A stretch of 64,000 nucleotides of DNA from Myxococcales bacterium 68-20. Its GTDB lineage: Bacteria > Myxococcota_A > Polyangia > Polyangiales > Polyangiaceae. Each line of letters opens with the position of its first letter. The first letter of the stretch is position 1. The stretch is taken from positions 1-64,000 of the forward strand of contig MKVQ01000006.1 in the NCBI GenBank assembly GCA_001899635.1, written 5' to 3'. The translations under genes and the position numbers were made by a program. Shown here one piece after another: positions 22,745-49,391 of this stretch. The notes below the pieces were generated by a model. It was not told the origin of the DNA and did not search any database. It saw only the letters and a program-made list of their open reading frames with translations.

Positions 22745-22992
22745 GGCCGTACGGTGCACGGCACGCAGTCTATCGAGGTCACGACCATGCGCGAGATCGA
22801 TCGCGTGCGCGGGAACCAGTCCGCGCACGAATGCCTCCAGCCCTCTCGCGGTCGGCTCAGCGCGCGCGGCTCGACGAAACAGAGCCGCGATTGGCTGAGC
22901 ACGGTCCTCGAGCCGCGCATCCGGAGCACGCACGCCCCCTTTACGATAGGATGCTCGGCTGTGGCTTTGGGGGCTAGCCTCGCCGAGCCGCT

Positions 22993-24144
22993 ATGCGTCG
23001 TTCCACCCAGTACCGCTTCCGTCCCCGCGTTGGCTGGGCGCGTCGCGGCGGGGCCGAAGGCCGGCGCAGCGTTCGGTGGCTCGTCGCGCTGGCGGCCATG
23101 GTCGGGACGCTGGGGACGGCCGTGACCGCGCGAGCGGAGTCGAAGTTCGCCTTCTCGTGGCGGGCCGAGCCTGGCGCGACGTGCCTGACGGAAGAGAAGC
23201 TCCGCGCGGCGGTCGAGAAGAAGCTCGGACGGTCCGTCTTCACGTCGCTCGACGAGGCGGAGATCGTGATCGAAGGCGAGGAGCTCCGCTACCGCGATCG
23301 CTTCCGCGCGCGGGTGACCCAGCACGACCGGGCGGGACGCGAGCACGGATCGCGCGAGCTCACGGCAGAGACCTGCGCCGCGCTCGAGCGCATGACCGTG
23401 GTCTTCATCGCCCTCGTCCTCGAGCCGGGCGGCGCCCGCGATCGAACGCATGGCGAGCCGATGCCGGACGCACGCGCCCCGGAGCAGAACGAGCGCACGG
23501 AGAAGGAGAAGGCCGCCCCTCCCATCGCGCCGAAGGACGACGCGGCGATCGCGTCCGCCGATGCCTCGCGCGCTCCGAGCCCGCCCCCCGGCGTCACGCA
23601 ACGCGCGCCATCTCATCGCGCTGCGGGCGTCGAGCTCCACGCCGGCGCAGGGGCTGGAGCTGCTGTGGGGATGCTGCCGAGCGTGAGCGCGTCGGTGCGG
23701 GTCACGATGCGGCTCACGGCGCCGGACAGTCGTCTGAGCGCCGATTGGTCGGCGGGGATGACGCTTCCGCAGATCGTGACCGAGGGCGCGGTCCGGGCGA
23801 GCTTGGCCGCCGTCGATCAACAGCTACGCGGATGCTGGGCGTGGCTCGATCGCGCCGCGCGGGTCGATACCTGTGCCGGCGCGTTCTACGGCGCGCTGAT
23901 CCCGACCTCGACGAACCTCGACAATGAAGACAGCCCGGCGCTCTCCGTGCTCGGCCCCACGGCGTCATTGGCGCTGCGCGGGGCCCACGGTCCCGCTACG
24001 TTTCACGTCGAGCTTGGCGTGATCGCGCCGTCGCTCCGCCGCAGGCTCAGCTACCTCGACCGCGGCGGCGTGGACCGAATGCTCTACGCGACGCCTGCCC
24101 TGATGGGGCTGGCCACGCTGTCGGCGACGTTCCGCGTGTTCTGA
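22993..24144 (+). CDS. Locus copy A, gene 1: secreted outer-membrane-like protein
   Basis: The 383-residue protein has a long basic N-terminus, a signal-peptide helix (VRWLVALAAMVGTLGTAVTA) and cleavage near ARAES. A ~110-residue first domain (FAFSWRAEPGATCLTEEKLR; ELTAETCAALERMTVVFIAL) is of the type found just before ECF sigma genes in Myxococcota. A Pro/Ala-rich linker and a C-terminal part with strand-like, Gly-rich segments follow, ending in Phe (SATFRVF), which suits a small outer-membrane barrel. It is equivalent to the gene at 33142-34164. It may sense or gate the envelope signal for the adjacent sigma factor; this is inferred from position only. Confidence 0.65.
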   Translation: MRRSTQYRFRPRVGWARRGGAEGRRSVRWLVALAAMVGTLGTAVTARAESKFAFSWRAEPGATCLTEEKLRAAVEKKLGRSVFTSLDEAEIVIEGEELRYRDRFRARVTQHDRAGREHGSRELTAETCAALERMTVVFIALVLEPGGARDRTHGEPMPDARAPEQNERTEKEKAAPPIAPKDDAAIASADASRAPSPPPGVTQRAPSHRAAGVELHAGAGAGAAVGMLPSVSASVRVTMRLTAPDSRLSADWSAGMTLPQIVTEGAVRASLAAVDQQLRGCWAWLDRAARVDTCAGAFYGALIPTSTNLDNEDSPALSVLGPTASLALRGAHGPATFHVELGVIAPSLRRRLSYLDRGGVDRMLYATPALMGLATLSATFRVF

Positions 24145-24230
24145 GCTCGCCCGCAAGTCGACACGTGAGCGACGAGCTCTGCCGCTCGCGCGAAGCCCGC
24201 TCCCTCTCCTTCCTCCGGGCCTCGGACTCC

Positions 24231-24908
24231 ATGGGGTTCGAAACCTCATCCGTTCGGTCCGATGTCGAATTCGTGATCTCGATCACAAAACAGGAGCGGC
24301 CCCTGGATTACCCATACGTGCGAAGCTTTTCCGGCAGCGCCGGCGTGATCGCGGGAGGCGCGGAACACCTCGAGCGAGAAGTGACGACGCCGGAGGCACG
24401 CCCCGAGTTTGCCGCGATCTTTCGCGACCTGAGGCCGTACGTTCAGTCGGCGCTCCGGGGCCTGGGCGTGCCTGCAGCCGATCTAGAGGACGCCTGCCAG
24501 GAAGTCTTCGTCGTGGTGCACCGCAAGCTCGCCACTTACGAAGATCGCGGCTCGCTCCACGCATGGCTGTACGGCATCTGCGTGCGGGTCGCGAACCACA
24601 CCCGCCGGCGACGCGTCCGCACCCCCGACGTCGGGAGCGACACGCTCCCGGAAGGCGTCGACCTCACGACACCTGCCGAGCAGCTGACCGCCTCGCAAGG
24701 GCGGCAGATTCTCTACTCGATCCTGGACCAGCTCGACGCCGACAAGCGCGCGGTCTTCGTCCTCTACGAGCTCGAGGAGCTCACGATGTCCGAAGTGGCT
24801 CGATCTCTCGATATCAATCTCTTCACCGCGTACTCGAGGCTACGGGCCGCGCGCGTAGAAGTTCAGCAGGCCATCGCTCGCTTCGCTCGCCAGAAGGTCG
24901 TCCGATGA
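24231..24908 (+). CDS. Locus copy A, gene 2: ECF-type RNA polymerase sigma factor
   Basis: The 225-residue product has region 2 (AIFRDLRPYVQSALRGLGVP; DLEDACQEVFVVVHRKLATY; GSLHAWLYGICVRVANHTRR) and region 4 (LDQLDADKRAVFVLYELEEL; TMSEVARSLDINLFTAYSRL) of sigma70-family ECF factors. The start is uncertain: a GTG at 24165 is in frame, but ATG at 24231 gives a more usual N-terminus. Its stop overlaps the ATG of gene 3 (ATGA). By analogy with other ECF operons it probably transcribes this locus and is held by gene 3. Copy B equivalent: 34235-34846. Confidence 0.9.
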   Translation: MGFETSSVRSDVEFVISITKQERPLDYPYVRSFSGSAGVIAGGAEHLEREVTTPEARPEFAAIFRDLRPYVQSALRGLGVPAADLEDACQEVFVVVHRKLATYEDRGSLHAWLYGICVRVANHTRRRRVRTPDVGSDTLPEGVDLTTPAEQLTASQGRQILYSILDQLDADKRAVFVLYELEELTMSEVARSLDINLFTAYSRLRAARVEVQQAIARFARQKVVR

Positions 24909-25639
24909 GCCGTGACCCGCAGCGGCTCGCCGACCTCGGCGCGAACGCCACCCCCGAAGACCGGCTCCTCGCGAGCCTCATCGAGCACCACCGTGAGGCC
25001 CGACCGACTGCGGCCGGGCTGCGAGGGATCGCCAAGCGCGCCGAGGCGCTCGCTCCTCCGGGCGGAGTCGCCGGCCGCCTCCACAGGTTCACTCTCTTCG
25101 GCGCGGTTGCGGCGGCGTGCGCGGCGATCTCCGTCATCGGCCTGCGCGTCACCTCCCCCTCGGCCGCGGCGTTGCCTGAGGAGCCGAGCGCGTCGTTAGC
25201 CGTCAGCGCGACGCCCGCGCCGAGCGAAGCGCCCGCGTCGGCTCACGACGCCGTCCCCGTCGACGTGCTCCCGAGCGAGCCCGTGCTCGCGGAGGGGCGA
25301 CCGCCGGAGTCTCCGACCAAGGCCGCGGCCGCATCGTCCACGCGACGCGCGAGCATCACGCGGATCAAGCGATCGTGCGACGAGTCCGAGCTCATCGATC
25401 GCGCGGAGACACTCCTGCGCACGGGTCAGGCTGCAAGCGCCCTCGAGGCCACCCGTCTCCACGCCGCTTGCGAGGAGACGGTCCTCGATCAAGAGCGGGA
25501 GCGCATCGCCATCGAAGCTCTCGTGCTGCTCGGCCGAAACCAAGAAGCGACGACTCGCGCCCGCGCGTTCGCGGCAAGCTATCCCTCGTCGCCGCACCTC
25601 CGAAGAATCCGCCAGCTCGTCGGCCTCGGCGCCGAATAG
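24905..25639 (+). CDS. Locus copy A, gene 3: single-pass membrane protein, probable anti-sigma or sigma-partner protein
   Basis: The 244-residue protein has a cytoplasmic N-terminus of about 60 residues (RLADLGANATPEDRLLASLI), one membrane helix (residues about 63-85, LFGAVAAACAAISVIGLRV), a Pro/Ala linker, and a C-terminal ~90-residue helical domain (SELIDRAETLLRTGQAASAL; ERIAIEALVLLGRNQEATTR; FAASYPSSPHLRRI) that looks TPR-like. This layout is common directly after ECF sigma genes in Myxococcota. The anti-sigma role is inferred from ATGA coupling to gene 2 and from topology; no ZAS zinc motif is present. Confidence 0.7.
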   Translation: MSRDPQRLADLGANATPEDRLLASLIEHHREARPTAAGLRGIAKRAEALAPPGGVAGRLHRFTLFGAVAAACAAISVIGLRVTSPSAAALPEEPSASLAVSATPAPSEAPASAHDAVPVDVLPSEPVLAEGRPPESPTKAAAASSTRRASITRIKRSCDESELIDRAETLLRTGQAASALEATRLHAACEETVLDQERERIAIEALVLLGRNQEATTRARAFAASYPSSPHLRRIRQLVGLGAE

Positions 25640-25755
25640 ACGTACGCGCATCGCGGCGTCCAGCGCCAAGCGCAGCCATCGCTTTTCGAACGTCGATAGG
25701 ACGACTCCAACGTTGTTCTCTGCCTCTCGCGCACGCGAGAGGTCGAGGTGGAATC

Positions 25756-26949
25756 ATGAAGACGCGATTGATCATCACCGGACTGGCCATCAGCCTCCTC
25801 GCCTTGCCATGGGGCTGTTCGTCGGTCGACCACCGGCTGGGCGTCGAGCGAAGCCCGGAGCCCGCCCCATTCGTCCCCACACCGGAGGACTCCGGCGTCG
25901 CTCCGGACGCCAATATGGCCTTGACCAACTACTGCCCATCGTCCGAGTGCCCTGCGGGGTGGATGACGTGTCCGGACTCGCGCTTTCCGTGCGATACGAA
26001 CATTCTCGCGGATTCACGCAATTGCGGCGGATGCGGAATCGCCTGCCCGGAGGGGAACGGGACCGACGGCTTCATCTGCGTCGAGGGGGCATGCAAGCTT
26101 CAGTGCAGTGGCGGCCAGTTCGGAGGCAAGGATTGCGACGGCATCGTCGACAACGGCTGCGAGAGCGGGCGGCTCGACCCCAACAACTGCGGGGCGTGCG
26201 GCGTCGCGTGCGACGCCGACGTGGAGTGCACCTGGCAAGACAAGATCGGGGGAGAGGTGGGGTGCGGATGCCCGCCCGGCACGATGAATTGCTCCGGCTC
26301 GTGTGTGGACACGACGACGAACGATAGCAACTGCGGCGCCTGTCGCAACGCGTGCAACAAGTCGGGCCCTGGCAAGCCCCCGCGCCCTCACGGGTACTAC
26401 GGGTGCAAGGACAGCGCGTGCGGCCACTTCAAATGTGAAGCGTACTGGGCCGACTGTGACGGAGACGAGGAGACCGGCTGCGAGACGTCGATGGTCTCGA
26501 ATGACAGCTGCGGCGCGTGCGGGCGAGCCTGTGCGCCGGGACAGCAGTGCGTGCTGGATATGGACGGTAGACCCTTCTGCGCCTGCGAAGACGATGGCCT
26601 CACGTTCTGTCAGCAGCTCGTACAGAACGGCGTTCCCAAAGGCGAGTGTGTCGACGTCAAATCGAACGTCCGCCATTGCGGTGGATGCTTCGTAGCGTGC
26701 ACGGCGACCACGTCGAGCAACGAGCGCGCCACGTGCGACTACGGCCAATGCTCGGTCGTCTGCGTGGATGGTCAAGCCGACTGCAACGGCGCCCGGTCCG
26801 ACGGCTGTGAAGTCGATACGAGGAGCGATCCACACAACTGTGGAGGCTGCGGCATCACCTGCGATCTCTCGATCGGGCAAGCGTGCGTAGCGGGCAAGTG
26901 CGTGGTCGCTCCGTGCGACGAAGTCGACGCGGGTGAGGTGCCCCGATGA
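25756..26949 (+). CDS. Locus copy A, gene 4: Cys-rich repeat lipoprotein (NCGxCGxxC repeats)
   Basis: The 397-residue protein has a signal peptide (MKTRLIITGLAISLLALPWG) and Cys21. The rest is built from repeats of the form N-C-G-x-C-G-x-x-C spaced by CDGxxDNGCE-like segments: NCGGCGIACPEG, CDGIVDNGCESG, NCGACGVACDAD, NCGACRNACNKSG, SCGACGRACAPG, NCGGCGITCDLS. This resembles the Stig1-type Cys-rich pattern found in many myxobacterial secreted proteins. It must be exported and disulfide-rich. A 116-nt gap separates it from gene 3, while copy B has none. It ends CDEVDAGEVPR and its stop overlaps the next ATG. Confidence 0.75.
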   Translation: MKTRLIITGLAISLLALPWGCSSVDHRLGVERSPEPAPFVPTPEDSGVAPDANMALTNYCPSSECPAGWMTCPDSRFPCDTNILADSRNCGGCGIACPEGNGTDGFICVEGACKLQCSGGQFGGKDCDGIVDNGCESGRLDPNNCGACGVACDADVECTWQDKIGGEVGCGCPPGTMNCSGSCVDTTTNDSNCGACRNACNKSGPGKPPRPHGYYGCKDSACGHFKCEAYWADCDGDEETGCETSMVSNDSCGACGRACAPGQQCVLDMDGRPFCACEDDGLTFCQQLVQNGVPKGECVDVKSNVRHCGGCFVACTATTSSNERATCDYGQCSVVCVDGQADCNGARSDGCEVDTRSDPHNCGGCGITCDLSIGQACVAGKCVVAPCDEVDAGEVPR

Positions 26950-28142
26950 GTGTGTGGCGCTCGACATTGGGCTTCGGCGCGGGCTCCGCATTCGTACTGG
27001 CAGGCGTGTTCGTCGGCGCGTGTGCATCGGACGAGACGCCCCTCAATCTCGATCCCGAGTCGACGGAAGTGGTCATTCCCGAGCGCGACGCCGGCCCCGA
27101 AGGCGACGCCGGCACTGCGGACGGTTCCGACGGGAGCGAGGCGTGCACCGACGACGACTGCGCGTTCTTTCCCGCCGAGTGTGAGCGGGGGGCGCTCTGC
27201 CCGAGCGGCCTGTTCGGAACGACCGCCGCCAACGGCGTGGATTGGCGCACGCGGGTGTCTGCGATTCGCGGACGCTCGGCGACGGATGCGTGGCTCGTCG
27301 GGACCGTCGGGCTGGCGGCCCACTTCGATGGTACGACGTGGAAGACCGCCGACGTCGGGACCGCCAAGTCGCTTCACTTCCTCCTGCTCGCGGAATCCGG
27401 TGAGCTCGCGTTCGGCACGCCCGACGAACTGTTCACGCGCGGATTCGGCGCTGGTGTCGGCCCCCCATCGCCGGATGGGTGGGTCAGCCGCGGGAGGGTA
27501 GCGCAGCCCGCGGGTGCGAGCCGCATTGTGACGACCGCATGGGGACTCCCCGGTTCCCGCGTGATGTGGGTTGCGACGAACGCCGAGGTGTGGCGCATCC
27601 GCGTCGGCGATGCCACGCTCACGACCTCGGCAGGGCTCACCAGGGCGGTGTGCAACAGCCTGCCGTGCAAGTACCTCCGAGGTCTCGACGGTGCATCCGC
27701 GAACGTCGTCTGGGGCGTCGGCGAGGCGGGAGCTGCGATACGCGTGGTCAACGCCGAGGCCGCGGTGCCGACGGTCGAAGTGTCGAACCCGCTGACGTGG
27801 CTCACGCTCAACGGCGTCTGGGCCGTATCCGACACCGAAGCGTGGGCCGTCGGAGCGCAGGGCACGATCATCCACAACGTCGGCGCAGCGTTCGACTGGG
27901 AGGTGGCCCAAGTGCCGACGCGCGCGCATCTGTACGCCGTGGCAGGCTCATCGTCGTCGGACATCTGGGCGGTCGGCGACCAGGGCGTGGTGCTCCATTA
28001 CGACGGAACGACGTGGTCGCGCGTGAAGGTCGCGGGAATGGGGCCGCGCAGGCCGGACCTCCGCGCGGTGTGGGTTCCGGAGCCCGGGAAAGTGTGGATT
28101 GGAGGCCAAGGGGTTCTCCTCTCGCTCGGAGACAAGCCATGA
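26946..28142 (+). CDS. Locus copy A, gene 5: lipoprotein with YCF48-like propeller repeats
   Basis: The 398-residue lipoprotein has its lipobox at VFVGAC (Cys26). A DAG-rich linker follows, then a short Cys cluster (CTDDDCAFFPAECERGALC). Next come four to five beta-propeller-type repeats of the pattern DxWxVGxxGxxxHxDGTTW: TDAWLVGTVGLAAHFDGTTW, EAWAVGAQGTIIHN, SDIWAVGDQGVVLHYDGTTW, then KVWIGGQGVLLSLG. Such repeats are typical of secreted propellers in Myxococcota. It is equivalent to 36812-38023. The start ATG overlaps gene 4's stop (ATGA). The ligand is unknown. Confidence 0.75.
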   Translation: MSVWRSTLGFGAGSAFVLAGVFVGACASDETPLNLDPESTEVVIPERDAGPEGDAGTADGSDGSEACTDDDCAFFPAECERGALCPSGLFGTTAANGVDWRTRVSAIRGRSATDAWLVGTVGLAAHFDGTTWKTADVGTAKSLHFLLLAESGELAFGTPDELFTRGFGAGVGPPSPDGWVSRGRVAQPAGASRIVTTAWGLPGSRVMWVATNAEVWRIRVGDATLTTSAGLTRAVCNSLPCKYLRGLDGASANVVWGVGEAGAAIRVVNAEAAVPTVEVSNPLTWLTLNGVWAVSDTEAWAVGAQGTIIHNVGAAFDWEVAQVPTRAHLYAVAGSSSSDIWAVGDQGVVLHYDGTTWSRVKVAGMGPRRPDLRAVWVPEPGKVWIGGQGVLLSLGDKP

Positions 28143-29569
28143 GACGACGATTCTTGGTCGCAACGTCAGCAGCGACGCTGGCTACCCTCGTCGCCTGCGC
28201 GGCGGCGGATGGAGAGGCAGTGTCGCCGGTGCCCGCTGAGGACGGTGGAACGGTGATCCCGGAGGCGGCACCTCCCATCGAGGCGGACGACGCGGAGGCG
28301 CCGAGGCGCGACGCGTCGGTTTCGCTCACGTGCAACGACCAGGGGTGGTGCGAGACGGAGCTGCCGGATCCGGACCTGACGCTGTTCGACGTTTGGCCGT
28401 TCGAGAAGAGCGCGTTTGCCATTGCGCAGAGCGAGACGCTGGGAACGAAGCTCCTCGAGTGGACCGAGGCGACGAACAAGTGGGCCTACGTCGACGACAA
28501 CTCGCAGAACACGTACAAGAGCGGTCACTACACGGGGAAGATGTTCGCCCCGAGCGAGAACGAGGTCTACTTCATCACGGCACCAGGCGTCGTCTTCCAC
28601 GGAACACGCGCCAACCCACAATCCGCGTTCACGTGGGAGTCGGCGCGTCTTCCCTACGACGGTCCTGTCTACCCCGATCGAGATCCGGGGGTCGCCTGGT
28701 CGGAAAACAACCCGGCGATACCGCGGCATCTCGCCTACGCGCTCGGCGTCTTCGGTACGTCGAAGGACGACGTCTACGCGTGGTTTGGCAATCGCATCTT
28801 CCGTCGGACTAGCGTCGGCGGCGCGTCTCCGAGTTGGGTCTCCGAGTTCGTCGCAGAAGATCCCGACGTGTCCGCGGACGAGTCTTTCTACATCTTCAAC
28901 GCCGCGAAGGGAGAAGGCGACGAAACCTGGTTCGTCGGTGGACGCGGCACGTACAGGAGCTCTGGCTACTACGGCTGTCCGACGCTGTACCGTCGCACCG
29001 CCGCCGGTTATTCGGCGGTCATCAACGGCTCGATTGCCAACTCCGAGTGCTCAGCGCTGCCGGGATCACTCGACCCAACCTGGTGGATCGACGACGGCTG
29101 GGAACTACCGCATGGCGTTCCGTCTTCGGTTTTCGGCTGGGGAGCGGCGGTGATCTCGGTCGGCTCCGGACAGGCCGTCCTTCTGCTCGATAGCGACTAC
29201 TACTACTTCTATTACGTCAACCTCGCAGCGGACATCGCTCGGGTCAACGTGATCAATTCCGTCGTCCCGCCGAGCATGAGCCCCCCGATCCATCACTCCG
29301 GCGTCCGCTTAGGCGATCGGATGTGGATGACCGGTGAGGGCACCACGTTCAGCTCGGAGATCAAAAAGGAGGCGTGGGAGGCGTCGCTCGGCATCGGCTC
29401 GCCGGCGGACTTCCAGGGTGGGCCCGGAGTTGGTGCGCTGGTCGAGATGTCCAGCGTGGCGATGAACGGGCGCTACCTGAACGAGCCACTCTACCAAGTC
29501 CGAGGACCGTCGACGAACAACCTCTGGGTAGTCGGAAAGCACTATGCACTTCACAAAAAGACGCCTTGA
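28139..29569 (+). CDS. Locus copy A, gene 6: lipoprotein with propeller-like domain
   Basis: The 476-residue lipoprotein has the lipobox LVAC at residue 20 and an acidic/Pro linker. The conserved core LPDPDLTLFDVWPFEKSAFA, IAQSETLGTKLLEWTEATNK and FAPSENEVYFITAPGVVFHG is shared with the product of 38020-39324. Several strands (SKDDVYAWFGNRIFRRTSVG; GDETWFVGGRGTY) resemble propeller blades. The last residues are LWVVGKHYALHKKTP; both paralogues end HKKTP or HKTTP. The gene overlaps gene 7 by 26 nt. It is unrelated to any family I know and is presumably displayed on the cell surface. Confidence 0.65.
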   Translation: MRRRFLVATSAATLATLVACAAADGEAVSPVPAEDGGTVIPEAAPPIEADDAEAPRRDASVSLTCNDQGWCETELPDPDLTLFDVWPFEKSAFAIAQSETLGTKLLEWTEATNKWAYVDDNSQNTYKSGHYTGKMFAPSENEVYFITAPGVVFHGTRANPQSAFTWESARLPYDGPVYPDRDPGVAWSENNPAIPRHLAYALGVFGTSKDDVYAWFGNRIFRRTSVGGASPSWVSEFVAEDPDVSADESFYIFNAAKGEGDETWFVGGRGTYRSSGYYGCPTLYRRTAAGYSAVINGSIANSECSALPGSLDPTWWIDDGWELPHGVPSSVFGWGAAVISVGSGQAVLLLDSDYYYFYYVNLAADIARVNVINSVVPPSMSPPIHHSGVRLGDRMWMTGEGTTFSSEIKKEAWEASLGIGSPADFQGGPGVGALVEMSSVAMNGRYLNEPLYQVRGPSTNNLWVVGKHYALHKKTP

Positions 29570-30920
29570 CCGGCAACGTTCTGGGCTGTTCGTCGCGATC
29601 TCGGTGCTCGCCGCTTCGGCGGTGGCCCTGAGCTGTTCGAGCACGGATGAGCCGGAGCTTCAGACGCCCGCCGATACCGATGCGGGCTCGGAGAGCTCGG
29701 ACGCGTCCTCCGAGGCCGACGCGAGCGCCGATGCGAGCGATGCGGATGCAGCCATCTTCGACGGGAAGCCGCTTCCCGTCGTGTGCGAGTCGAAGCCGTG
29801 CGCGACCGAGCTCGTGACGACGCTCGGTGCCGACGAGAACGATGGCGCCGAGGGGTTCTGCGTATTGCTCGACGATGGCACGGTCGCGTGTTGGGGCGCG
29901 AACGGCGCGGGGCAACTCGGCCGCGGTGAGGCCGAAGATGAAGAGCTCTTCGACAGTGCAACGGCGGCCAAGGTCGTTGGCCTCTCGAACGTCGCGGCGC
30001 TCGACCGCACGTGTGCGCTGGACAAGAGCGGCGGCGTTTGGTGCTGGGGAAGCGGTCCCTTTCGCTGGGAAGAAAGCGGCGTGGTCAACGCCCGCTCCAC
30101 CTCGCCGGTGAAGCTCCCGCTACCGCCCGCCACGAGCGTGGCACGCAGCTTCAAGACCGCATGCGCAATCGTGGGCGACGACGATGTTCGTTGTTGGGGC
30201 GACAACGGGCTCGGTCAGCTCGGACCGACCACGATGAACTTCAACGGCGAGCCGCAGCAGGCGGAGCTCCCTGCGGGATCACCTGCATCGTCGCTGGCAG
30301 TGGGCAACACCACCTTCGTCCTTCGCGCGGATGGCTCACTCGTGACGTGGGGCGGCAACCCGGGCATTGGACGTGTATCGGCGAGCTTCCCGGACCCGCG
30401 CCCGCAACCCATCTCGCTCTCGGGCGTCACGCAAATCGACGCCACGCACAACAATACGTGCGCGATAGCGAATGGTAAGGCGTATTGCTGGGGCGCGCGC
30501 CTCGTCCCCACCAAGGGAACGGTCGTTGAGCGAGCGCTCCCCGAGCCGGTGGTCGCACCCGAGCCTCTCGTTCGAATCGCGACGACCCACTCGGAAGGGA
30601 AATACTATTCTTTCAGCAAGAGGTTCGTCGGATTCAAACCCTACCGCTGGTGCGGCGTGGGCGCTTCGGGAAGCCTCTACTGCTGGGGCTACAACACCAG
30701 CGGACAGGCGGGAACAGGGGACCAAGAGTTCGTCACCCGCGCGACGTTGGTCGACGGCCTTCCAGCGAAGGTGGCGCGCGTGCGGACGACGATGAACTCG
30801 ACATGCGCGCTGCTCACGACCGGCAAGGTGTACTGCTGGGGCAGCAACTATCACGGGCAGCTCGGCAACGGGCTGAATCGAGGCAGAAGCTTCGTTCCGA
30901 CAGAGGTGGTGCTTCCATGA
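29544..30920 (+). CDS. Locus copy A, gene 7: RCC1-repeat lipoprotein
   Basis: The 458-residue protein has a late lipobox (ASAVALSC, Cys31) after a basic N-terminus, and an Asp/Ala/Ser-rich linker. RCC1-type propeller repeats follow, each with the CWGxNxxGQLG signature: VACWGANGAGQLG, VRCWGDNGLGQLG, LYCWGYNTSGQAG, VYCWGSNYHGQLG. Intervening CAL/CAI strands complete the blades. RCC1 propellers serve as protein-binding platforms. Its start lies 26 nt inside gene 6, and the paralogous pair in copy B has the same 26-nt overlap. The stop overlaps the ATG of gene 8. Confidence 0.8.
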   Translation: MHFTKRRLDRQRSGLFVAISVLAASAVALSCSSTDEPELQTPADTDAGSESSDASSEADASADASDADAAIFDGKPLPVVCESKPCATELVTTLGADENDGAEGFCVLLDDGTVACWGANGAGQLGRGEAEDEELFDSATAAKVVGLSNVAALDRTCALDKSGGVWCWGSGPFRWEESGVVNARSTSPVKLPLPPATSVARSFKTACAIVGDDDVRCWGDNGLGQLGPTTMNFNGEPQQAELPAGSPASSLAVGNTTFVLRADGSLVTWGGNPGIGRVSASFPDPRPQPISLSGVTQIDATHNNTCAIANGKAYCWGARLVPTKGTVVERALPEPVVAPEPLVRIATTHSEGKYYSFSKRFVGFKPYRWCGVGASGSLYCWGYNTSGQAGTGDQEFVTRATLVDGLPAKVARVRTTMNSTCALLTTGKVYCWGSNYHGQLGNGLNRGRSFVPTEVVLP

Positions 30921-32692: not shown

Positions 32693-32700
32693 GCGTCGAG

Positions 32701-32724
32701 CGCCGCTCGCAACCGCGAGCGGCG
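32701..32724 (+). terminator. Hairpin at the end of locus copy A
   Basis: A perfect 10-bp GC stem (CGCCGCTCGC / GCGAGCGGCG) with a 4-nt loop lies 8 nt after the stop of gene 8. There is no T-tract, so it may block or process RNA rather than act as a classical terminator. Confidence 0.5.
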
Positions 32725-34164: not shown

Positions 34165-34234
34165 GACCGGGCCGTTCGAATTCCTGCAACACAAGTCCTG
34201 CTGGCAGCGAGAAAGGGCCAGAAGGAACGTCCGA

Positions 34235-35631: not shown

Positions 35632-36815
35632 GAACGGTTCGTACGATCGTGCTCGCATGCGGCCTTTTCGGAGGCTTCGTGGCATGTTCGACCGGAGACG
35701 CCGTAATCGGTGAAGCCGCTCCGGAGCGTCCTGGCGAGTCCTTCGTGAGCGAGGACGCTGCAGTCGCTGCGCCGGAATCCGAGCTCAGGTCGTATTGCGC
35801 CTCCAACCAATGTCCCCCGGGCCACACGACGTGCCCCTCGTCGGACTTCCTCTGCGACGTCGATCTCCGCACTGACCTGAACAACTGCGGAGAATGCGGG
35901 AACATGTGTCCGCGCCCCGGCATCGGCAGCAGCAGCTACGCCTGCGTCGAGGGCCGCTGCGTGTTGAACTGCATGGCGACTCAAGAGCTCGACTGCGACG
36001 GCCTCCCAGACAATGGCTGTGAGACGAAACCTCTCAGCAATGACAACTGCGGATATTGCGGGAACAAGTGTCCGACAGACAAGCCGTGCATCGACCGGGG
36101 AATCTACGACTACGCGTGCGGCTGCAAGCCAGGCGAGCTCAATTGTGGGGGCTTCTTCCTGCCTTGCATCGATCCGTCCTACGATGATGCGAACTGCGGA
36201 GCGTGCGGCAACGCCTGTCCTCCCCAAGGTGACGGGACCGTCGAGGTGCCACCGAACGCGTACTTCGGCTGTTTCGAGGGTGAGTGCGGGACGGTGAAGT
36301 GCGGCGGCCTCTTCGGCAACTGTGACGCCGACCTCACCGGCAACGGCTGCGAGACCCCCCTCACGAGCGAAGACAACTGCGGAGCCTGCGGAAACAAATG
36401 CCCGGACGGGATGAAATGCCGCCTGGACTCGTTCATGAAACCGCAGTGCATGTGCCCCGAGGGGCAGACGCTCTGTGAGGGCGGCTGCTTCGGCGACCTC
36501 TGCTTCGGCAGCTGCCACGATCTCACTTCGGACAGGATGAACTGCGGAGCGTGCGGGTCACGTTGCTCCGTCGACGTGACGAACGCCGACGAGGCTTGCG
36601 TCTACGGAAGATGCGATTGGTCGTGCAGGGCCGGCTGGGGCGACTGCAACGGCAACCGCGATGACGGTTGCGAGACCAACATCTCTTCAGACCCGAAGAA
36701 CTGCGGCGGGTGCGGGATCGTCTGCGACGGCATCGCCGGTCAGGCATGCGTCGACGGTCGATGCATGGTCGAGCCGTGCGACGAGCTTCAGGATGCCGGA
36801 GGACCGCCGCGATGA
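35628..36815 (+). CDS. Locus copy B, gene 4: Cys-rich repeat lipoprotein (NCGxCGxxC repeats)
   Basis: The 395-residue protein has a signal peptide ending GGFVAC (Cys20). As in copy A, the mature part is a chain of NCGxCGxxC repeats: NCGECGNMCPRP, NCGYCGNKCPTD, NCGACGNACPPQG, NCGACGNKCPDG, NCGACGSRCSVD, NCGGCGIVCDGI. CDGLPDNGCE-type segments lie between them. Both paralogues end with an AGQACVxGxCxVxPCDE segment. The ATG overlaps the stop of gene 3, so here translation of the lipoproteins is coupled to the sigma module, unlike copy A. Confidence 0.75.
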   Translation: MRTVRTIVLACGLFGGFVACSTGDAVIGEAAPERPGESFVSEDAAVAAPESELRSYCASNQCPPGHTTCPSSDFLCDVDLRTDLNNCGECGNMCPRPGIGSSSYACVEGRCVLNCMATQELDCDGLPDNGCETKPLSNDNCGYCGNKCPTDKPCIDRGIYDYACGCKPGELNCGGFFLPCIDPSYDDANCGACGNACPPQGDGTVEVPPNAYFGCFEGECGTVKCGGLFGNCDADLTGNGCETPLTSEDNCGACGNKCPDGMKCRLDSFMKPQCMCPEGQTLCEGGCFGDLCFGSCHDLTSDRMNCGACGSRCSVDVTNADEACVYGRCDWSCRAGWGDCNGNRDDGCETNISSDPKNCGGCGIVCDGIAGQACVDGRCMVEPCDELQDAGGPPR

Positions 36816-38023
36816 AGACGACATGGCTCGTCACCGTCACAGGGACCGCGTGCGCGCTCGCCATCCTGGCAGCATGCGCGACCGACGGCGAGACGCCCAC
36901 GACTCTCGCCGACGACGCGAGCACGCCCTTGCCGTCGGCTGCGCCCGATGCAGGCGGCGACGCAGAGACCGGCGAAGACGCGTCCGTCTGCGTCGACGAT
37001 TGCGAGTATTACCCGGACGAGTGCACCGACGACGCGCTCTGCCAGACTCCCCTCTTCGGCGCAGTCGCGACGCCGGAGAAGCTGGATGTGCGCTCTCACG
37101 TCCAAGCGCTCGCAGCCCGATCGCCGACCGATGCATGGCTCGTCGGCACCGCCGGTGCGGCCGCGCACTTCGACGGCACGTCGTGGAAGCGGTCCGTGAC
37201 GGGAACGCAGCATTCGTTCTACGCGCTCTGGCTCCGCGGTGACGCCGAGATCGCCTTCGATGATCCGAAGCGGCTCTACACGCGCGGGCTCGGTACGGAC
37301 GCGGGAGCTCCGTCCGCCGGCGGGTGGTCGCTCTTCGGCTCCGCGACACTTCATCCAGACTGGGGAGAGTCCAATGGGCGTGTGTACACCTCGTGGGCTC
37401 ACGCGGAGTCGACCTCGCTCTGGGTCGGCGTGACGACGCAGGGCACTCGTGGCGGGCTGTGGCGACTGCGACCGGTCGCCGGCGGAAGCTTCGCCGTCAC
37501 GGCGGCCACGCTCGACAAATGCGGCTCCAACGCGACAGTCCCGTGCCGGGAGGTCTATGGAATCGACGGTCGCTCCGCCGACGAGGTCTGGGCCGTCGGT
37601 CCGCGAGGTGCCGCGTTCCGCGTCACGAACGCCGAGGCCGACGAGCCGACGCTGACCGGCTTCAGCACGGGCACGATCATCGCCCTTCACGACGTGTGGG
37701 TCGCCGGGCCGAACGACGTCTGGGCCGTCGGCTCGACCGGCACGGTGCGTCGTTGGCGCGGCGATCCACGCTTCTTCGAGGCCTACGACGAAGTGCCGAC
37801 GAACCAACACCTTCGCGCGATCGGCGGGTCGTCGCCGAGCGACATCTGGATCGCCGGAGACGAGGGCACCGTCTTTCACTACGACGGCACCACCTGGAGC
37901 CGCGTGAAGGTCGCCGGCCTCGACGGACGACGACCGCAGCTCGAGCACATCTGGGTCCCGTCGCCCGGCAAGGTCTGGATCGCCGGACGAGGAACGCTCT
38001 TGTCGCTCGGAGGAAAACCATGA
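36812..38023 (+). CDS. Locus copy B, gene 5: lipoprotein with YCF48-like propeller repeats
   Basis: The 403-residue lipoprotein has the lipobox ILAAC (Cys22) and a linker rich in Asp and Ala. The Cys cluster DCEYYPDECTDDALC matches the copy A one. The repeats are TDAWLVGTAGAAAHFDGTSW, DEVWAVGPRGAAFRV, NDVWAVGSTGTVRRWRGD, SDIWIAGDEGTVFHYDGTTW and KVWIAGRGTLLSLGGKP, which are close to those of 26946-28142. The very similar spacing of blades in the two paralogues shows descent from one ancestor. Confidence 0.75.
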   Translation: MKTTWLVTVTGTACALAILAACATDGETPTTLADDASTPLPSAAPDAGGDAETGEDASVCVDDCEYYPDECTDDALCQTPLFGAVATPEKLDVRSHVQALAARSPTDAWLVGTAGAAAHFDGTSWKRSVTGTQHSFYALWLRGDAEIAFDDPKRLYTRGLGTDAGAPSAGGWSLFGSATLHPDWGESNGRVYTSWAHAESTSLWVGVTTQGTRGGLWRLRPVAGGSFAVTAATLDKCGSNATVPCREVYGIDGRSADEVWAVGPRGAAFRVTNAEADEPTLTGFSTGTIIALHDVWVAGPNDVWAVGSTGTVRRWRGDPRFFEAYDEVPTNQHLRAIGGSSPSDIWIAGDEGTVFHYDGTTWSRVKVAGLDGRRPQLEHIWVPSPGKVWIAGRGTLLSLGGKP

Positions 38024-39324
38024 GAACGCTCATCGTCTTCGCGTCCGCCGTCGCATCGGTCGCGATCGCCTCTGCCTGCGCGAGCTCGGAAGACGTAGCT
38101 TCGGTTGGCGGCGATCCGCCGCCGCCGGCGGTGGTCCCCGACGGCGGCGATGACGACGGCGGCCCCGTCGCCGACGTCGACGTCCCCGATACTCGACTGC
38201 CCGACTGCAGCGCCGCCGGCTGGTGCATCACCGGCTTCCCGGACGAAGACCTCGTCTTCCGTGACATCGCGCCCTTCGAGGAGGTCGCCTTCGCGATCGC
38301 CGAGAGCGCGACGGAGGGCGTCAAGGTCCTCGAGTGGACGAAGTCGACGAACACCTGGAAGTACATCGACGACGGCACGCAGAACCAGGCGCCCATCGGC
38401 ACGTTCGCCGGTCGCATCTATGCCCCGAACGTCGACGAGATGTATTTCACCGTCGGGCCGTCGCACATCTTTCACGGCCAGCGCTCCGGTGGCACGTGGA
38501 CGTGGACGAACCAGGCCCTCCCGGACAACATCGCCGGCCACACGGACAGTCACGGAAGTCCGGTCGAGAACGCCAGCAACCAGCCAATCGCGACGCTCGG
38601 CGTCTGGGGAACCGGCGCGGGCGACGTCTATGCATACTACAGCAACACGATCTTCCACCGTGACCCGGCCGACGGAAGCTTCGCCGCGGTCTACGTCGCC
38701 GATGACCTCGAGGCGGCCCACGAACACATCTTCTTCTCGTCCGTCCACGGAAGCGGCCCGAACGACGTCTGGTTCGTCGGCGCTCGCGATCGAACGTGGA
38801 CCAACTGCCCCCTCGTCGTCCGGAAGTCTGCCGCCGGCTGGGAGCGCGTAGCAGACGCCATCGTCTCGGACGACGCGTGGGCGGCCTGTACCGAACGTCC
38901 GGAGACGCTCTTCCTCGGCGGCAGCGACAGGGGCGGGTGGCTCGTCGACATCGCCCCGGTGTCGACGACCGAGTACGTCGCGCTCCACAACAAGACCTAC
39001 CAAGGATCCCTGGAGGACATCTCCGCCACGACGATTCGTGTCACGGACGATGGATACTCGTTCGAGCAGTCGCTCGTTCCGGTGACGGTCGCGCCCAACG
39101 CCGGCACCAGGACCGCGACCGCGCTCTGGCGCGGTGACGGCGAGACCTGGTTCACCTCGTGGGGACTCGTCCTTCGCGGGGGCGATGAGGGCACGTTCTC
39201 GGTCTCGACGCTCTCCCGCAGCGGCGGGCCGGTCATTGCGCCGTTCTACAGGATCCGCGGCACCTCGAACCAAAACCTCTGGGCAATCGGAGCCCGCCAT
39301 GCGTACCACAAGACGACCCCTTGA
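38020..39324 (+). CDS. Locus copy B, gene 6: lipoprotein with propeller-like domain
   Basis: The 434-residue lipoprotein (lipobox ASAC, Cys20) has an Asp/Gly/Pro linker and the conserved core FPDEDLVFRDIAPFEEVAFA, IAESATEGVKVLEWTKSTNT and YAPNVDEMYFTVGPSHIFHG. Later strands include GDVYAYYSNTIFHRDPADGS and PNDVWFVGARDRTWTNC. It ends NLWAIGARHAYHKTTP, matching the copy A tail. It is about 40 residues shorter than the copy A protein, mainly in the middle. It overlaps gene 7 by 26 nt. Confidence 0.65.
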   Translation: MRTLIVFASAVASVAIASACASSEDVASVGGDPPPPAVVPDGGDDDGGPVADVDVPDTRLPDCSAAGWCITGFPDEDLVFRDIAPFEEVAFAIAESATEGVKVLEWTKSTNTWKYIDDGTQNQAPIGTFAGRIYAPNVDEMYFTVGPSHIFHGQRSGGTWTWTNQALPDNIAGHTDSHGSPVENASNQPIATLGVWGTGAGDVYAYYSNTIFHRDPADGSFAAVYVADDLEAAHEHIFFSSVHGSGPNDVWFVGARDRTWTNCPLVVRKSAAGWERVADAIVSDDAWAACTERPETLFLGGSDRGGWLVDIAPVSTTEYVALHNKTYQGSLEDISATTIRVTDDGYSFEQSLVPVTVAPNAGTRTATALWRGDGETWFTSWGLVLRGGDEGTFSVSTLSRSGGPVIAPFYRIRGTSNQNLWAIGARHAYHKTTP

Positions 39325-40756
39325 AGCGGAGTGGACGCGGTCCAGCATCGCTGAACCGAGCCCACGCGACACCGATGGCGTTCGGCGAACGCGTCGCCCG
39401 ATCGCCGCGCGCGTGCCCGCGCTGCTCGCGCTCGTCACGAGCCTCTCGGCCGTGGTCGCCATGAGCACGAGCTGCTCGAGCAGCGACGACGACACGCGAG
39501 AGTCCCACCCGAGCGACGCGGACGGCGGGGCGGATGCCGCTCCCGAGGCCGATCGCGAAGACGTCGTCATCGACGCGGGCATCGCGGATGTCTTGGTCGT
39601 CGACAGCGCGCCGCTGCCGATCGAATGCAAGGATCCACCGTGCGCGATCGCGCTCACGACGACCTCGGCGACCTCAGGCTCGCTCGAGGAGGGCTATTGC
39701 GCGCTGCTCGACGACGGCACCGTGGCGTGCTGGGGCGCGAACGCAGAGGGACAGCTGGGGAGCCCCGAGACGATCGGCAACAGTCCGGTTCCCGTTCGGG
39801 TGTCAGGGCTGTCGAAGATCACCCAGCTCGACCACTCGTGCGCGGTCGACAGCGATGGCTCGGCCTTCTGCTGGGGACGAGGCCCCTTCCTCCAGAGCGA
39901 GGCGTCAGCGACGACGGTGGAGACCACCCCCGTTCGGCTGCCACTGCCCGGTCCCGCGACGAAGGTCGCCTTCACGACCGCCAACAACTACGTCGGCTGC
40001 GCCCTCCTCCGCGATCGCAGCGTGGTCTGCTGGGGCTCGAACCTCGGGCAGCAGCTTGGTGACGGCGTCCCGACCTCGGGGGGATACAACCATCCACCCC
40101 GTACGATCGAGGCCGCCTCCGGGGCCAAGGACATCGCCCTCGGGAGCGCGGCGTTCGTGATCGATGACACCGGTACGCTGAAGAGCTGGGGCGCGGCCAT
40201 CGGCGCTGGACGTCCGATCTCGCTCCAATTCGACAGATGGCCCACGAAGGTGGCTCTCGACCACGTCTCGATGATCGATACCATCGGACAAGAGGCGTGC
40301 GCCGTCGCGAACGGCATCGGCTGGTGCTGGGGCGCCAGGGAGGGCCTGGCGGACGTCAGACTCGACCAGTACATCCGCGCGCTGCCAGCCGCGGTCGACA
40401 CTCCCGAGCCGCTCACGCGCATCGCGACGTCGCAATCGCTGGTCGTGTCGGAGAACCTCATTTCGTACGTCCACAAGCGTCGCTGGTGCGCAACGTCGGT
40501 GACCGGCGCGGTGTACTGCTGGGGACTCAACAATGCCGGTCAGGCGGGGGACGGCACGAAGCAGTTCGCGCTCGAACCCGTCCAGGTCGCCAATCTCCCG
40601 GCTCCCGCAGCCGAGGTGAAGGTCATGCCGTATTCGACGTGTGCAATCCTGACGACGGGGAAGGTCTACTGCTGGGGAAGCAACTCGTACGGTCAGCTCG
40701 GAGCCGGACTTCCAAGAGGAACCGTGCTCCAGCCGGTGGAGGTGAAGCTCCCATGA
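39299..40756 (+). CDS. Locus copy B, gene 7: RCC1-repeat lipoprotein
   Basis: The 485-residue protein has a basic N-terminus, a hydrophobic signal segment (ALLALVTSLSAVVAMST) and a lipobox near STSC. The RCC1 signatures are VACWGANAEGQLG, VVCWGSNLGQQLGDG, VYCWGLNNAGQAG and VYCWGSNSYGQLG. The start ATG at 39299 lies 26 nt inside gene 6, exactly as in copy A; earlier in-frame starts are rejected because they overlap the previous gene more deeply. The stop overlaps gene 8 (ATGA). Confidence 0.8.
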   Translation: MRTTRRPLEAEWTRSSIAEPSPRDTDGVRRTRRPIAARVPALLALVTSLSAVVAMSTSCSSSDDDTRESHPSDADGGADAAPEADREDVVIDAGIADVLVVDSAPLPIECKDPPCAIALTTTSATSGSLEEGYCALLDDGTVACWGANAEGQLGSPETIGNSPVPVRVSGLSKITQLDHSCAVDSDGSAFCWGRGPFLQSEASATTVETTPVRLPLPGPATKVAFTTANNYVGCALLRDRSVVCWGSNLGQQLGDGVPTSGGYNHPPRTIEAASGAKDIALGSAAFVIDDTGTLKSWGAAIGAGRPISLQFDRWPTKVALDHVSMIDTIGQEACAVANGIGWCWGAREGLADVRLDQYIRALPAAVDTPEPLTRIATSQSLVVSENLISYVHKRRWCATSVTGAVYCWGLNNAGQAGDGTKQFALEPVQVANLPAPAAEVKVMPYSTCAILTTGKVYCWGSNSYGQLGAGLPRGTVLQPVEVKLP

Positions 40757-42546
40757 GGCGCGCGCGGACCTCCTTCGGCGCGCTCGGCGCCGTGACCTCG
40801 GTCGGCGTCCTCATCGCGCTGATCGCTGCCTGCGGCGACGATCGCGGCGGCTTCATCAAGAACGATCGTGCGTTCGAGACGCAGTCCGAGGGAGGGGCTC
40901 CGGACGCAGAGACCTGTCTCCTCCAGTGCTCGCTCGACGGACGGTCGATCATCGACTCGTGCACGGGCGGCGTGGTCGAGACGTGCGCCGACGATCTCGC
41001 CTGCGGCGCGGCCAAGTGTCAGGAGCCGTGCGCAGCAGCGGAGGCCGATCGAAGCTCGAACGGTTGCGACTTCTACTTCACGCAGCCCCTGTCCGCCTAC
41101 CCGTTCGCCTCGTGCTTCGCGACGTTCGTCGTCAACGCGTCGAACAAGCCGGCAACGGTGTCTCTCGAGCTGGGAGGTGAAGAGCTCGACGTGTCGGGTG
41201 CGCTCTTCCGCGCCGTGCCGAACAGCACCGATCTCGAGCTGCTCGAAGGCCCCATCCCGCCAGGAGAGAGCGCGATCCTCTTCGTCGCCGACTGGGACCC
41301 CACGATACCGCGCTCGCTCGGGGAGCGGCTCTACCACACGTCCTGTCCTACGGCCGCCAAGCCCGCGATCCAGGCGGACGGATACTTCAGGTCCGGCATC
41401 GGCGACGCGTTCCGCCTGAAGAGCAATGTCCCGATCGGCCTCACATGGATGTACCCGTACGGTGGCGCCGGAACGCACTTCCCGACGGCAACGCTCGTCT
41501 TGCCGGTGAGCGCATGGGCGAAGGAGCACGTCGTCGTCAACGGATGGGAGGCGAACGTTGGAGAGCCAGTGACGCAGATCTTCGCGGCCGAGGACGATAC
41601 CGAGATCACGATCTTCGGGTCCAAGGACGTCACGAACGGAGTCGGCTTCGCAGGCGCCACCGCCGGGATGCCGGCGAAGATCATGCTGTCGAAGGGCCAG
41701 TTCGTGCAAATCGCACAGAGCCAGGAGCTCACCGGTAGCCTCGTCTTCTCCAACAAGCCGACGGCGACCGTCGGCGGAAGTGAGTGCGCGAACTTGCCTT
41801 CGAAGGCGGCGGCTTGCGATACGCTCGCGCAGCAGATCCCGGCCTTCGAACAGTGGGGGTCGGAATACGTCGGGATCGGCTACCGGCCGCGCACCGCGAA
41901 CACCGAGGAGATCGTCTGGTACCGCATGGTCGGTGGTCGCGACGGCACGGAGCTCGAGTACGATCCCGTCAAGCCGGCGGGTGCTCCGACCACGCTCTCT
42001 GCGGGCGAGCTCGTGCTCTTCCGCGCACGCTCGAACGACGCGTTCGTCGTCCGAGCACGCGACGCCGAACATCCATTCTACCTCGGCATGCACATGTCGG
42101 GAGCCGACGGCGAGGAGAGCGACTCCCCGAGTCACGGAGGCATGGGAGATCCGGAATTCGTCAACGTCGTCCCGTCGGGCCAATACATGAGCTCCTACAG
42201 CTTCTACGCGGACTCGTCGTTCTCGGAGCACTCGCTCGTGATCGTGCGGAAGAAGACGCACGGCGCCTTCAAGGACGTATGGCTCGAGTGCGCCGGCAAC
42301 CTGCCTGACTGGAAGCCGATCGACAGTGCGGGGCAGTACGAATACAGGCGTGTCGATCTGTCTCGCAACTTCGGTCCCGGCGACTCGTTCGGTGAGAAGC
42401 GGTGCACGACGGGGCTCCAGCGCATGCGGAGCGAGGGTGCGTTCTCCGCGACCCTCTGGGGCTGGGGCAAGTACGCGAGCTACGCGTATCCGGGCGGCAC
42501 GGCGTTCCGCAAGCTCGTGGAGATCCCGCTCTCGCCGGTGAATTGA
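40753..42546 (+). CDS. Locus copy B, gene 8: IgGFc-binding-domain-like lipoprotein
   Basis: The 597-residue lipoprotein has the lipobox LIAAC. The N-terminal Cys cluster CLLQCSLDGRSIIDSC with CADDLACGAAKCQEPC is nearly identical to that of copy A. The IgGFc-binding-like domain then shows VSAWAKEHVVVNGWEANVG, QIFAAEDDTEITIFG, TGSLVFSNKPTATVGGSECA, IPAFEQWGSEYVGIGYRPR and WYRMVGGRDGTELEYDP. It is much closer to the truncated copy at 17165-18517 than to the copy A protein. It is the last gene of the operon. Confidence 0.75.
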   Translation: MRRARTSFGALGAVTSVGVLIALIAACGDDRGGFIKNDRAFETQSEGGAPDAETCLLQCSLDGRSIIDSCTGGVVETCADDLACGAAKCQEPCAAAEADRSSNGCDFYFTQPLSAYPFASCFATFVVNASNKPATVSLELGGEELDVSGALFRAVPNSTDLELLEGPIPPGESAILFVADWDPTIPRSLGERLYHTSCPTAAKPAIQADGYFRSGIGDAFRLKSNVPIGLTWMYPYGGAGTHFPTATLVLPVSAWAKEHVVVNGWEANVGEPVTQIFAAEDDTEITIFGSKDVTNGVGFAGATAGMPAKIMLSKGQFVQIAQSQELTGSLVFSNKPTATVGGSECANLPSKAAACDTLAQQIPAFEQWGSEYVGIGYRPRTANTEEIVWYRMVGGRDGTELEYDPVKPAGAPTTLSAGELVLFRARSNDAFVVRARDAEHPFYLGMHMSGADGEESDSPSHGGMGDPEFVNVVPSGQYMSSYSFYADSSFSEHSLVIVRKKTHGAFKDVWLECAGNLPDWKPIDSAGQYEYRRVDLSRNFGPGDSFGEKRCTTGLQRMRSEGAFSATLWGWGKYASYAYPGGTAFRKLVEIPLSPVN

Positions 42547-43989: not shown

Positions 43990-44047
43990 TCGCACGCGGG
44001 CGCCTACGCGTTCGGGACGGCGTTGGAGTATGCTCCCGCTGCTTACC

Positions 44048-45591: not shown

Positions 45592-45610
45592 TTCGCTGGA
45601 GACCAGAACC

Positions 45611-49383: not shown

Positions 49384-49391
49384 GGAACACC

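Follow-up and report, generated by a model that had tools for sequence, protein, structure and literature searches.

Dispersed cassettes of extracytoplasmic function sigma factors and predicted surface lipoproteins, with heads and payloads recombined against each other, in Myxococcales bacterium 68-20

The 64-kb window analysed here (positions 1 to 64,000 of contig MKVQ01000006.1, that is, C6:1-64000) belongs to the genome of Myxococcales bacterium 68-20 (hereafter G000; 11,892,454 bases in 52 contigs, reported contamination 4.2%). It contains two neighbouring blocks, A (22993-32692) and B (33142-42546), in which eight gene families, g1 to g8, occur in identical order, as described in the initial annotation of this DNA. 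Each block includes a gene for an extracytoplasmic function (ECF) sigma factor and a series of genes for predicted lipoproteins. In the following, g1-g3 are called the head and g4-g8 the payload of a cassette, and the family of cassettes to which A and B belong is the subject of this study. The features of the window are listed below.

22947-22952, plus strand: TAGGAT, candidate sigma-70-like -10 element upstream of A1, 46 nt before the ATG (from the sequence)
22993-24144, plus strand: A g1, secreted protein, possible outer-membrane sensor (head); without Pfam match
24283-24313, plus strand: candidate promoter, conserved non-coding block before the A sigma gene (by eye, A against its orthologue L193)
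24345-24908, plus strand: A g2, ECF sigma factor (head), proposed GTG start; Sigma70_r2 and r4
24905-25639, plus strand: A g3, membrane partner, presumed anti-sigma factor with periplasmic TPR-like domain (head); from position and model
25756-26949, plus strand: A g4, Cys-rich predicted lipoprotein with the head/payload junction in its first ~60 residues; Stig1
26946-28142, plus strand: A g5, propeller-like predicted lipoprotein (payload); weak BNR/Ycf48
28139-29569, plus strand: A g6, propeller-like predicted lipoprotein (payload); cross-hits with g5 in iterated hidden Markov models (HMMs)
29544-30920, plus strand: A g7, RCC1-repeat predicted lipoprotein (payload); RCC1_2, 107 bits
30917-32692, plus strand: A g8, IgGFc-binding-domain predicted lipoprotein (payload); PF17517, 329 bits
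33142-34164, plus strand: B g1, secreted protein (head); without Pfam match
34235-34846, plus strand: B g2, ECF sigma factor (head); Sigma70_r4_2 and r2
34843-35631, plus strand: B g3, membrane partner (head); family match
35628-36815, plus strand: B g4, Cys-rich predicted lipoprotein; Stig1
36812-38023, plus strand: B g5, propeller-like predicted lipoprotein; homologue of A g5
38020-39324, plus strand: B g6, propeller-like predicted lipoprotein; homologue of A g6, family match
39299-40756, plus strand: B g7, RCC1 predicted lipoprotein; RCC1 profile
40753-42546, plus strand: B g8, IgGFc-binding-domain predicted lipoprotein; PF17517, 314 bits
15967-43308, no strand: 27.3-kb stretch containing A, B and an orphan g8; the orthologous site on contig C212 of genome G003 has only ~170 bp
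17165-19108, minus strand: orphan IgGFc-binding gene beside A, the third g8 copy in the window, without cassette; PF17517, 313 bits

In A and B alike, 4-nt ATGA overlaps join g2/g3, g4/g5, g5/g6 and g7/g8, and g3/g4 overlap by 4 nt in B and lie 116 nt apart in A. The overlap of g6 and g7 is 26 nt in both blocks, and its conservation in two diverged cassettes suggests a kept translational coupling. The sigma gene of block A probably starts at GTG 24345, rather than at 24165 or 24231, because the upstream starts are absent from the orthologue. Identity between A and B is low in the head (27% in g1, which is not significant at a BLASTP E of 0.98, 28% in g2 and 36% in g3) and reaches 46% in g4 and g5, 37% in g6, 45% in g7 and 51.5% in g8.

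Searching G000 with the g8 of block A (A8) gave 144 matches, of which 131 span at least 1300 nt. A set of 135 regions (the 131 near full-length places minus one overlapping region on C9, plus five fragment stretches) was fetched, merged with the window into 2.11 Mb in 105 pieces and searched with iterated HMMs of the eight genes. Ninety-three cassettes with strict gene order were found, together with 14 more that lack only a detected g1. Collected via g8 and counted from five genes upward including g8, 128 cassettes of roughly 9.5 kb each are dispersed through the genome on 36 contigs and occupy 1,174,385 bases, or 9.9% of it. All eight genes are present in 97 of the 128, and sigma factor, partner and all five payload genes in 112, bearing out the earlier description of a sigma-linked operon of mostly predicted lipoproteins. 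Fourteen pairs of neighbouring cassettes lie within 2 kb of each other, 12 of them on the same strand. Thus, the number of A8 matches and the cassette counts place A and B side by side within a family of about 128 cassettes. Among the 150 g3 matches scored out of 509 candidates in G000, 121 fall in payload-bearing cassettes and 29 outside; a census of ECF sigma factors with PF08281, which scored 150 of 443 candidates, was not used as a count.

Some components were also seen in other arrangements. Extra single RCC1 (g7-like) genes occur in G000 (e.g., at C49:29081, C21:107037, C44:117976 and C45:11542), ten of them stand-alone and several directly after cassettes, and at C9:51941-59460 two consecutive g8 genes stand behind a head with almost no other payload (pattern 123488).

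The initial annotation regarded A and B as a single locus that was duplicated in tandem long ago and whose copies both diverged. Their adjacency and shared gene order agree with such an origin, and likely whole-cassette tandem pairs do exist elsewhere, such as C4_264352/C4_273995 (head 44-55%, payload 40-59%); in genome G006, locus L213 likewise has a cassette like C4_273995 followed directly by a head like that of C4_264352. For A and B themselves, the closeness rankings of all eight genes refute an A-to-B duplication, B being only the 21st to 102nd closest relative of A, depending on the gene, among 107 cassettes. The closest payload of A is found on C40 (65-85%) and that of B on C43 or C19 (69-85%), the identity of the two heads is at background level, and in G003 the orthologue of A lies on C360 and the A-B site is empty. 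A tandem origin of this pair is accordingly given next to no credence.

An assembly or binning artefact, in which copies from several strains were brought together, was considered in view of the reported contamination and the number of contigs given above. On the other hand, the cassettes lie inside contigs of up to 755 kb, no pair among the 107 compared cassettes exceeds 90% identity in any gene, and full cassettes occur in two other genomes of the genus, which leaves this explanation highly improbable.

To describe how the eight genes evolve together, identity matrices were compared for the 107 of 128 cassettes whose genes stand in strict order, whether or not g1 was detected (93 rows for g1). 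Spearman correlations were 0.32-0.39 within g1-g3 and 0.66-0.80 within g4-g8, and only -0.03 to 0.11 between the two groups, with permutation maxima of 0.07-0.115 for five within-module pairs. The cassette therefore consists of two evolutionary modules, the head and the payload, each of which co-evolves internally. In the 13 payload pairs with at least 75% identity (10 cassettes), the sigma core identity was 22.6-37.8% with a mean of 30.2, close to a background of 33.1 (permuted heads: 33.1, sd 2.4). Conversely, where sigma factors are at least 50% identical (144 pairs), payloads average 41.7% identity, with 81 pairs below 45%. Only 6 of 107 cassettes share a head cluster with their closest neighbour by payload.

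Such numbers might also be expected if heads and payloads were inherited together and heads simply evolved much faster, and the highest ratio of nonsynonymous to synonymous substitution rates (dN/dS) in g1 (0.61) as well as a weak residual association between heads and payloads point in that direction. This explanation was rejected on the basis of an orthologue control: block A and its orthologue L193, with payloads at 80-90%, keep 91.7% identity in the sigma core, whereas paralogous payload pairs of at least 75% keep 30%. The similar sigma factors on dissimilar payloads just described also contradict a difference in rate, and payloads are at least 65% identical in 38 pairs, only one of which has sigma factors of at least 50%. 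Moreover, the mismatch of head and payload at locus L201 in a relative, described below, points to specific other cassettes. A mere difference in rate is thus very improbable.

The boundary between the modules could be placed within g4. In 40-column windows, the correlation of g4 with the payload was 0.07 for columns 0-40, 0.01 for 20-60, 0.30 for 40-80 and 0.67 for 60-100. DNA homology in the 32 payload pairs with at least 66% identity begins at a median of 231 nt after the g4 HMM start and ends at a median of 0 nt from the g8 stop; one of these pairs keeps its head too, and two more have a single head match of ~100 nt. Hence the head/payload junction lies in the first ~60 residues of g4, and recombination has reassorted heads and payloads, the homologous tract running as far as the g8 stop. 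Another part of g4, alignment columns 180-220, is well conserved but correlates with neither module (rho 0.06 for the head and 0.00 for the payload), as though reshuffling had taken place inside g4.

These results bear on two earlier proposals about regulation. Since heads and payloads have been reassorted, the proposal that every sigma factor co-evolved with a set of binding proteins of its own does not hold. Separate control of the copies is plausible, since almost every copy has a different sigma factor and partner, although the argument originally offered for it, a difference in the region 4 recognition helix, is weak: the sigma factors diverge over their whole length, and region 4 ranks with the better conserved windows.

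Related genomes provide a further view of module exchange. A Labilithrix metagenome-assembled genome (MAG) carries a g8 at 90% identity, the basis for calling G000 'Labilithrix-like'. Twenty-one loci from G003, G006 and this MAG were compared with the 107 reference cassettes, 21 of the 128 being left out; five loci were too short to judge (L194, L199, L204, L205 and L212), leaving 16. Eight match one cassette over head and payload, wholly or mostly (L193, which corresponds to A, and L197, L198, L202, L203, L209, L210 and L213, the last also showing the head of the next cassette in the order seen in G000), and L206 is mostly concordant with C23_156450. The best matches of head and payload are different cassettes in the other seven of the 16 (L195, L196, L200, L201, L207, L208 and L211). 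L201 is decisive, with a payload 80-90% identical to C16_404402 and a head 73/60/48% identical to C6_130620; L208, whose payload is near two cassettes, is the weakest case.

The family appears to have expanded mainly in one lineage. A first look across 108 genomes of the taxonomic family (own included) gave 163 candidates in G000 and 60 in G003, with no other listed genome exceeding 36; G003 has 34 near full-length g8 copies. The RCC1 gene g7 stands beside the best IgGFc locus (g8) in 5 of 7 genomes within the genus (own excluded) and in 0 of 41 genomes of other genera, where one locus per genome was considered with flanks of about 1.5 kb that contig ends sometimes truncated. The expectation that the five lipoprotein families occur together with this ECF group is consequently supported within this genome (112 of 128 cassettes, collected via g8), whereas outside the genus g7 and g8 were found apart at the loci considered. 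The head partner g3 was found in 54 of 58 genomes searched (own included). Because g3 is widespread and the association of g7 with g8 was seen within the genus, the head seems to be a common signalling module of older origin, and the payload cassette seems to have been added at the level of the genus.

The site of A and B was also compared with G003. Window positions 12951-15966 and 43309-52500 are collinear on G003:C212 with only ~170 bp between them, so the 27.3-kb stretch is absent from that site; it could represent a gain in G000 or a loss in G003, in either direction. L193, the orthologue of A on C360, is homologous to window positions 22938-32710 at 86%; the rest of L193 has no window match, the only other hits of the window being g8 copies that match the L193 g8. 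The other g8 copies on C360 are 41% identical to A8, and sequence downstream of L193 has matches at dispersed positions in G000. A PAS/histidine kinase gene (20086-21618, minus strand) separates the orphan g8 from A in the window, and its region has many 65-83% matches in G003.

The different context of A in G003, the empty site there and the share of the genome taken by cassettes would be in line with selfish amplification, in which the cassette spreads for its own sake with little function for the cell. Pfam scans of six proteins from the left part of the 27.3-kb stretch found no transposase, and a repeat scan of this left part gave no obvious border repeats. The 110 nt downstream of g8, read by eye in 60 of 116 cassettes without a systematic search, had no common end and no obvious terminal repeat. 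Furthermore, comparison of A with L193 revealed no stop in any gene and dN/dS values of 0.61 for g1, 0.35 for g2 (computed from ATG 24231 and thus including ~38 codons that are non-coding under the proposed GTG start), 0.46 for g3, 0.35 for g4, 0.27-0.28 for g5-g7 and 0.16 for g8. These genes are intact, under purifying selection and kept functional, and the presumed sensor g1 changes fastest in this one pair. Taken together, purely selfish spread is improbable.

Variation among the copies is large. By payload, the cassettes fall into classes of 57, 43 and 7. Median identity over cassettes is 22% for g1, the most divergent gene, 26% for g6 and 31% for g5; pairs above 80% number 0, 1 and 0 in g1, g2 and g3 (1 of 5671 for the sigma factor) and 9-14 in g5-g8. 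As g6 and g5 are also divergent by median, payload variety may be of importance too. Surface variation or bet-hedging against phages or grazers, where payload variety is what matters and the heads merely keep few cassettes on, would fit this variety, the recombination between copies and the expansion in one lineage. Against it, there is no single expression site and silent partial copies are not the rule, 112 of 128 cassettes having their own sigma factor and partner; in addition, the most divergent gene lies in the head, and close pairs are rarer in heads than in g5-g8. We consider this explanation unlikely, while giving it more weight than the others set out above.

With regard to the gene products, the sigma, Cys-rich, RCC1 and IgGFc profiles named earlier could be found by Pfam, and g1, g3 and g6 of A and B had no Pfam match; NCBIfam likewise named no family for these three. 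A2 and B2 are ECF sigma factors (PF04542 and PF08281 over cut-off and a TIGR02937 match), short proteins with regions 2 and 4 and without region 3. The g4 products of A and B contain STIG1-like Cys-rich sequence according to Pfam, and A4 scored 73.3 bits against the MXAN_6577-like family NF041328, below its curated cut-off of 100. RCC1 repeats exceeded the Pfam cut-off in g7 of both blocks, and IgGFc_binding matched g8 of A and B with E of 3e-98 and 1e-93 (cut-off 25.6 bits). A strict lipobox scan of 107 copies each was positive for g4 in 35, g5 in 72, g6 in 66, g7 in 44 and g8 in 90; because of these counts, the label 'lipoprotein' is best supported for g8, g5 and g6.

The other two head proteins are less readily classified. 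The g1 protein (340-383 aa) matched nothing in Pfam in A or B, and A1 also had no NCBIfam match; an AlphaFold prediction of g1 with three sequences had a predicted local distance difference test score (pLDDT) of 30 and gave no usable model. At the C-terminus, 35 copies end in F, 32 in P, 20 in L and 16 in R, and endings in alternating strands resemble those of outer-membrane barrels. The model of g3 from A, mostly at pLDDT 75-95, contains N-terminal helices, a hydrophobic helix at 56-79 and helical hairpins at 160-239. With low confidence, helix 56-79 may be taken as a transmembrane segment, which would be followed by a low-confidence linker and then the confidently modelled hairpin domain. 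In Foldseek, TPR folds ranked top but were weak, none reaching E<0.001.

Promoter signals differ between the two possible transcription starts in the head. The sigma-70-like -10 pattern TAGNNT occurred 23 times in the 20-nt stretches that precede the g1 HMM start of 105 cassettes (0.5 expected) and 6 times before g2 (0.5 expected); the TAGGAT of A1 falls upstream of this enriched 20-nt bin and outside it. Before g2, a bipartite motif was detected with the full-set consensus TTgTGATcA, usually 14-15 nt, gGaATTatt. The windows were anchored on the g1 stop, since some sigma frames run on into g1, and the threshold was the 99th percentile of background. In a held-out test, which is not fully blind because the seed was chosen after viewing all regions, 9 of 52 regions in each half passed with 0.5 expected each (18 of 104, 1 expected). 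Trained on all 104 regions, the motif passed before g2 in 36 of 104 (not independent), before g1 in 1 of 104 and before g4 in 0 of 119. A genomic background was used; dyad counts against base shuffles were uninformative, as the background is TCG-rich. The candidate promoter of block A (24283-24313) lies outside the motif window. Inspected by eye, most of eight orthologous gene pairs have conserved blocks upstream of g2, and these blocks vary between heads. These signals make it likely that the layout comprises a constitutive-type g1 and a self-driven g2-g8 operon. A private promoter common to g1 and g2 of one cassette was rejected for lack of any signal.

In three cassettes of G000 (C44:191790-201326, C4:437648-446134 and C23:239180-248907), sigma factor and partner are opposite in strand to the payload, and in L203 to part of it; these are natural tests of a sigma factor acting in trans on a payload promoter. 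At C4:437648-446134, a similar element (TGATC...CGACACTAC then ATG) was seen by eye before the inverted sigma gene and before payload g4; its best 28-nt window has 20 matches, with up to 19 in shuffles, and both copies are below the motif threshold.

Several known systems resemble parts of this arrangement. Bacteroidota SusCD loci comprise dozens of paralogous surface-protein operons per genome that are linked to ECF sigma/anti-sigma pairs; no SusC or SusD family was found by Pfam in the 16 proteins of A and B, and here payload and head are uncoupled in evolution and about 128 copies of one operon plan are present. In Borrelia vls, many surface-gene copies recombine as they do here, and one expression site is fed by silent copies. 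The cassettes differ in that almost all are full operons that include a sigma gene of their own, and incomplete copies feeding one expression site were not what was found. Polymorphic toxin systems share the exchange of modules at a fixed junction; the part exchanged in the cassettes is the regulatory head instead of a toxin tip, and the 16 proteins of A and B include no toxin or immunity family.

The unit of an envelope protein, a one-transmembrane-segment regulator and an ECF sigma factor turning on surface proteins is also reminiscent of FecA-FecR-FecI (PMC9249621). In that system, fecIR is under sigma-70 control without autoregulation, and the receptor gene is the one controlled by the ECF sigma factor, whereas in the cassettes the ECF-type motif precedes the sigma operon, the sigma-70-like element precedes the secreted g1, and head and output modules are shuffled. 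No TonB-dependent receptor match was obtained for g1 and no FecR-family match for g3 (Pfam for A and B; NCBIfam scans), and the C-terminal part of g3 models as a TPR-like helical domain. In the parts available of two ECF reviews (PMC8103513, PMC8999054), sigma/anti-sigma orthogonality is discussed and no family like these cassettes is named.

We favour, with fair confidence, the reading that the about 128 dispersed cassettes are separately triggered sigma switches, each driving the display of a related surface complex; their cues and purpose (recognition, adhesion or evasion) may be sketched as follows. The g1 protein would be made from a housekeeping-type promoter and sense an outside cue; g1 or the cue itself would act on the periplasmic TPR-like domain of g3, which would inhibit g2 and then release it. 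The freed sigma factor would transcribe g2-g8 from the ECF-type promoter before g2, and the five payload proteins may form one surface complex, shown by the cell while the others stay off. As the head would set when and the payload what, module swapping would rewire which cue calls up which surface. It is unlikely that the payload is a specific receptor feeding back on g3 in the manner of FecA, because payloads do not track heads; g1 is thereby suggested as the specific sensor, in agreement with its having diverged more than any other gene.

Several observations weigh against this reading. The modules are not fully independent (head-payload Mantel rho 0.086, p=0.01), and pairs of the same head cluster share a payload cluster in 57.8% of cases against 33.5% by permutation (p=0.0005). 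The six mismatched loci other than L201 show moderate identities and were judged against 107 of 128 reference cassettes. The evidence for g3 as an anti-sigma factor consists of position and topology, neither Pfam nor NCBIfam giving any match to g3, anti-sigma families included; that for g1 as an outer-membrane sensor consists of hydrophobic N-termini and the C-terminal residues. The lipobox counts are low for g4 and g7. The g2 motif, whose seed pattern was picked after looking at all 104 regions, covers at most about a third of the cassettes, and of six testable payloads without a co-oriented head, only one (on C44) passes its threshold. Finally, the sequences upstream of g1 and g2 resemble each other no more closely within a cassette than between cassettes (mean 11.86 within, 12.02 between, p=0.79; p=0.65 each for g2/g4 and g1/g4).

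More tentatively, and somewhat short of an even chance, the family may form a combinatorial input-output system, in which ~128 mutually insulated ECF switches are kept unique, each read from its own sensor, and a common five-protein pool is exchanged at one junction. If so, the pairing of cue and surface could be rewired without changing either part, which would make it a bacterial surface repertoire of a new kind. Searches of open-access full text found neither this gene set nor such a family described. By analogy, one cassette would work like known ECF envelope signalling, and the scale and the exchange of head and payload would be new.

The family shows that one operon plan can take a tenth of a large bacterial genome. 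It provides more than 100 natural ECF sigma/partner pairs in one cell as a test bed for the insulation of switches, and a case in which recombination at a known junction has separated regulatory heads from output modules. The most likely use, which is a guess, lies in contact or adhesion, or in recognising prey, kin or matrix. If payloads mediate contact, the cassettes would give this bacterium a repertoire for recognising prey, kin or surfaces whose scale is, to our knowledge, matched in no other bacterium.

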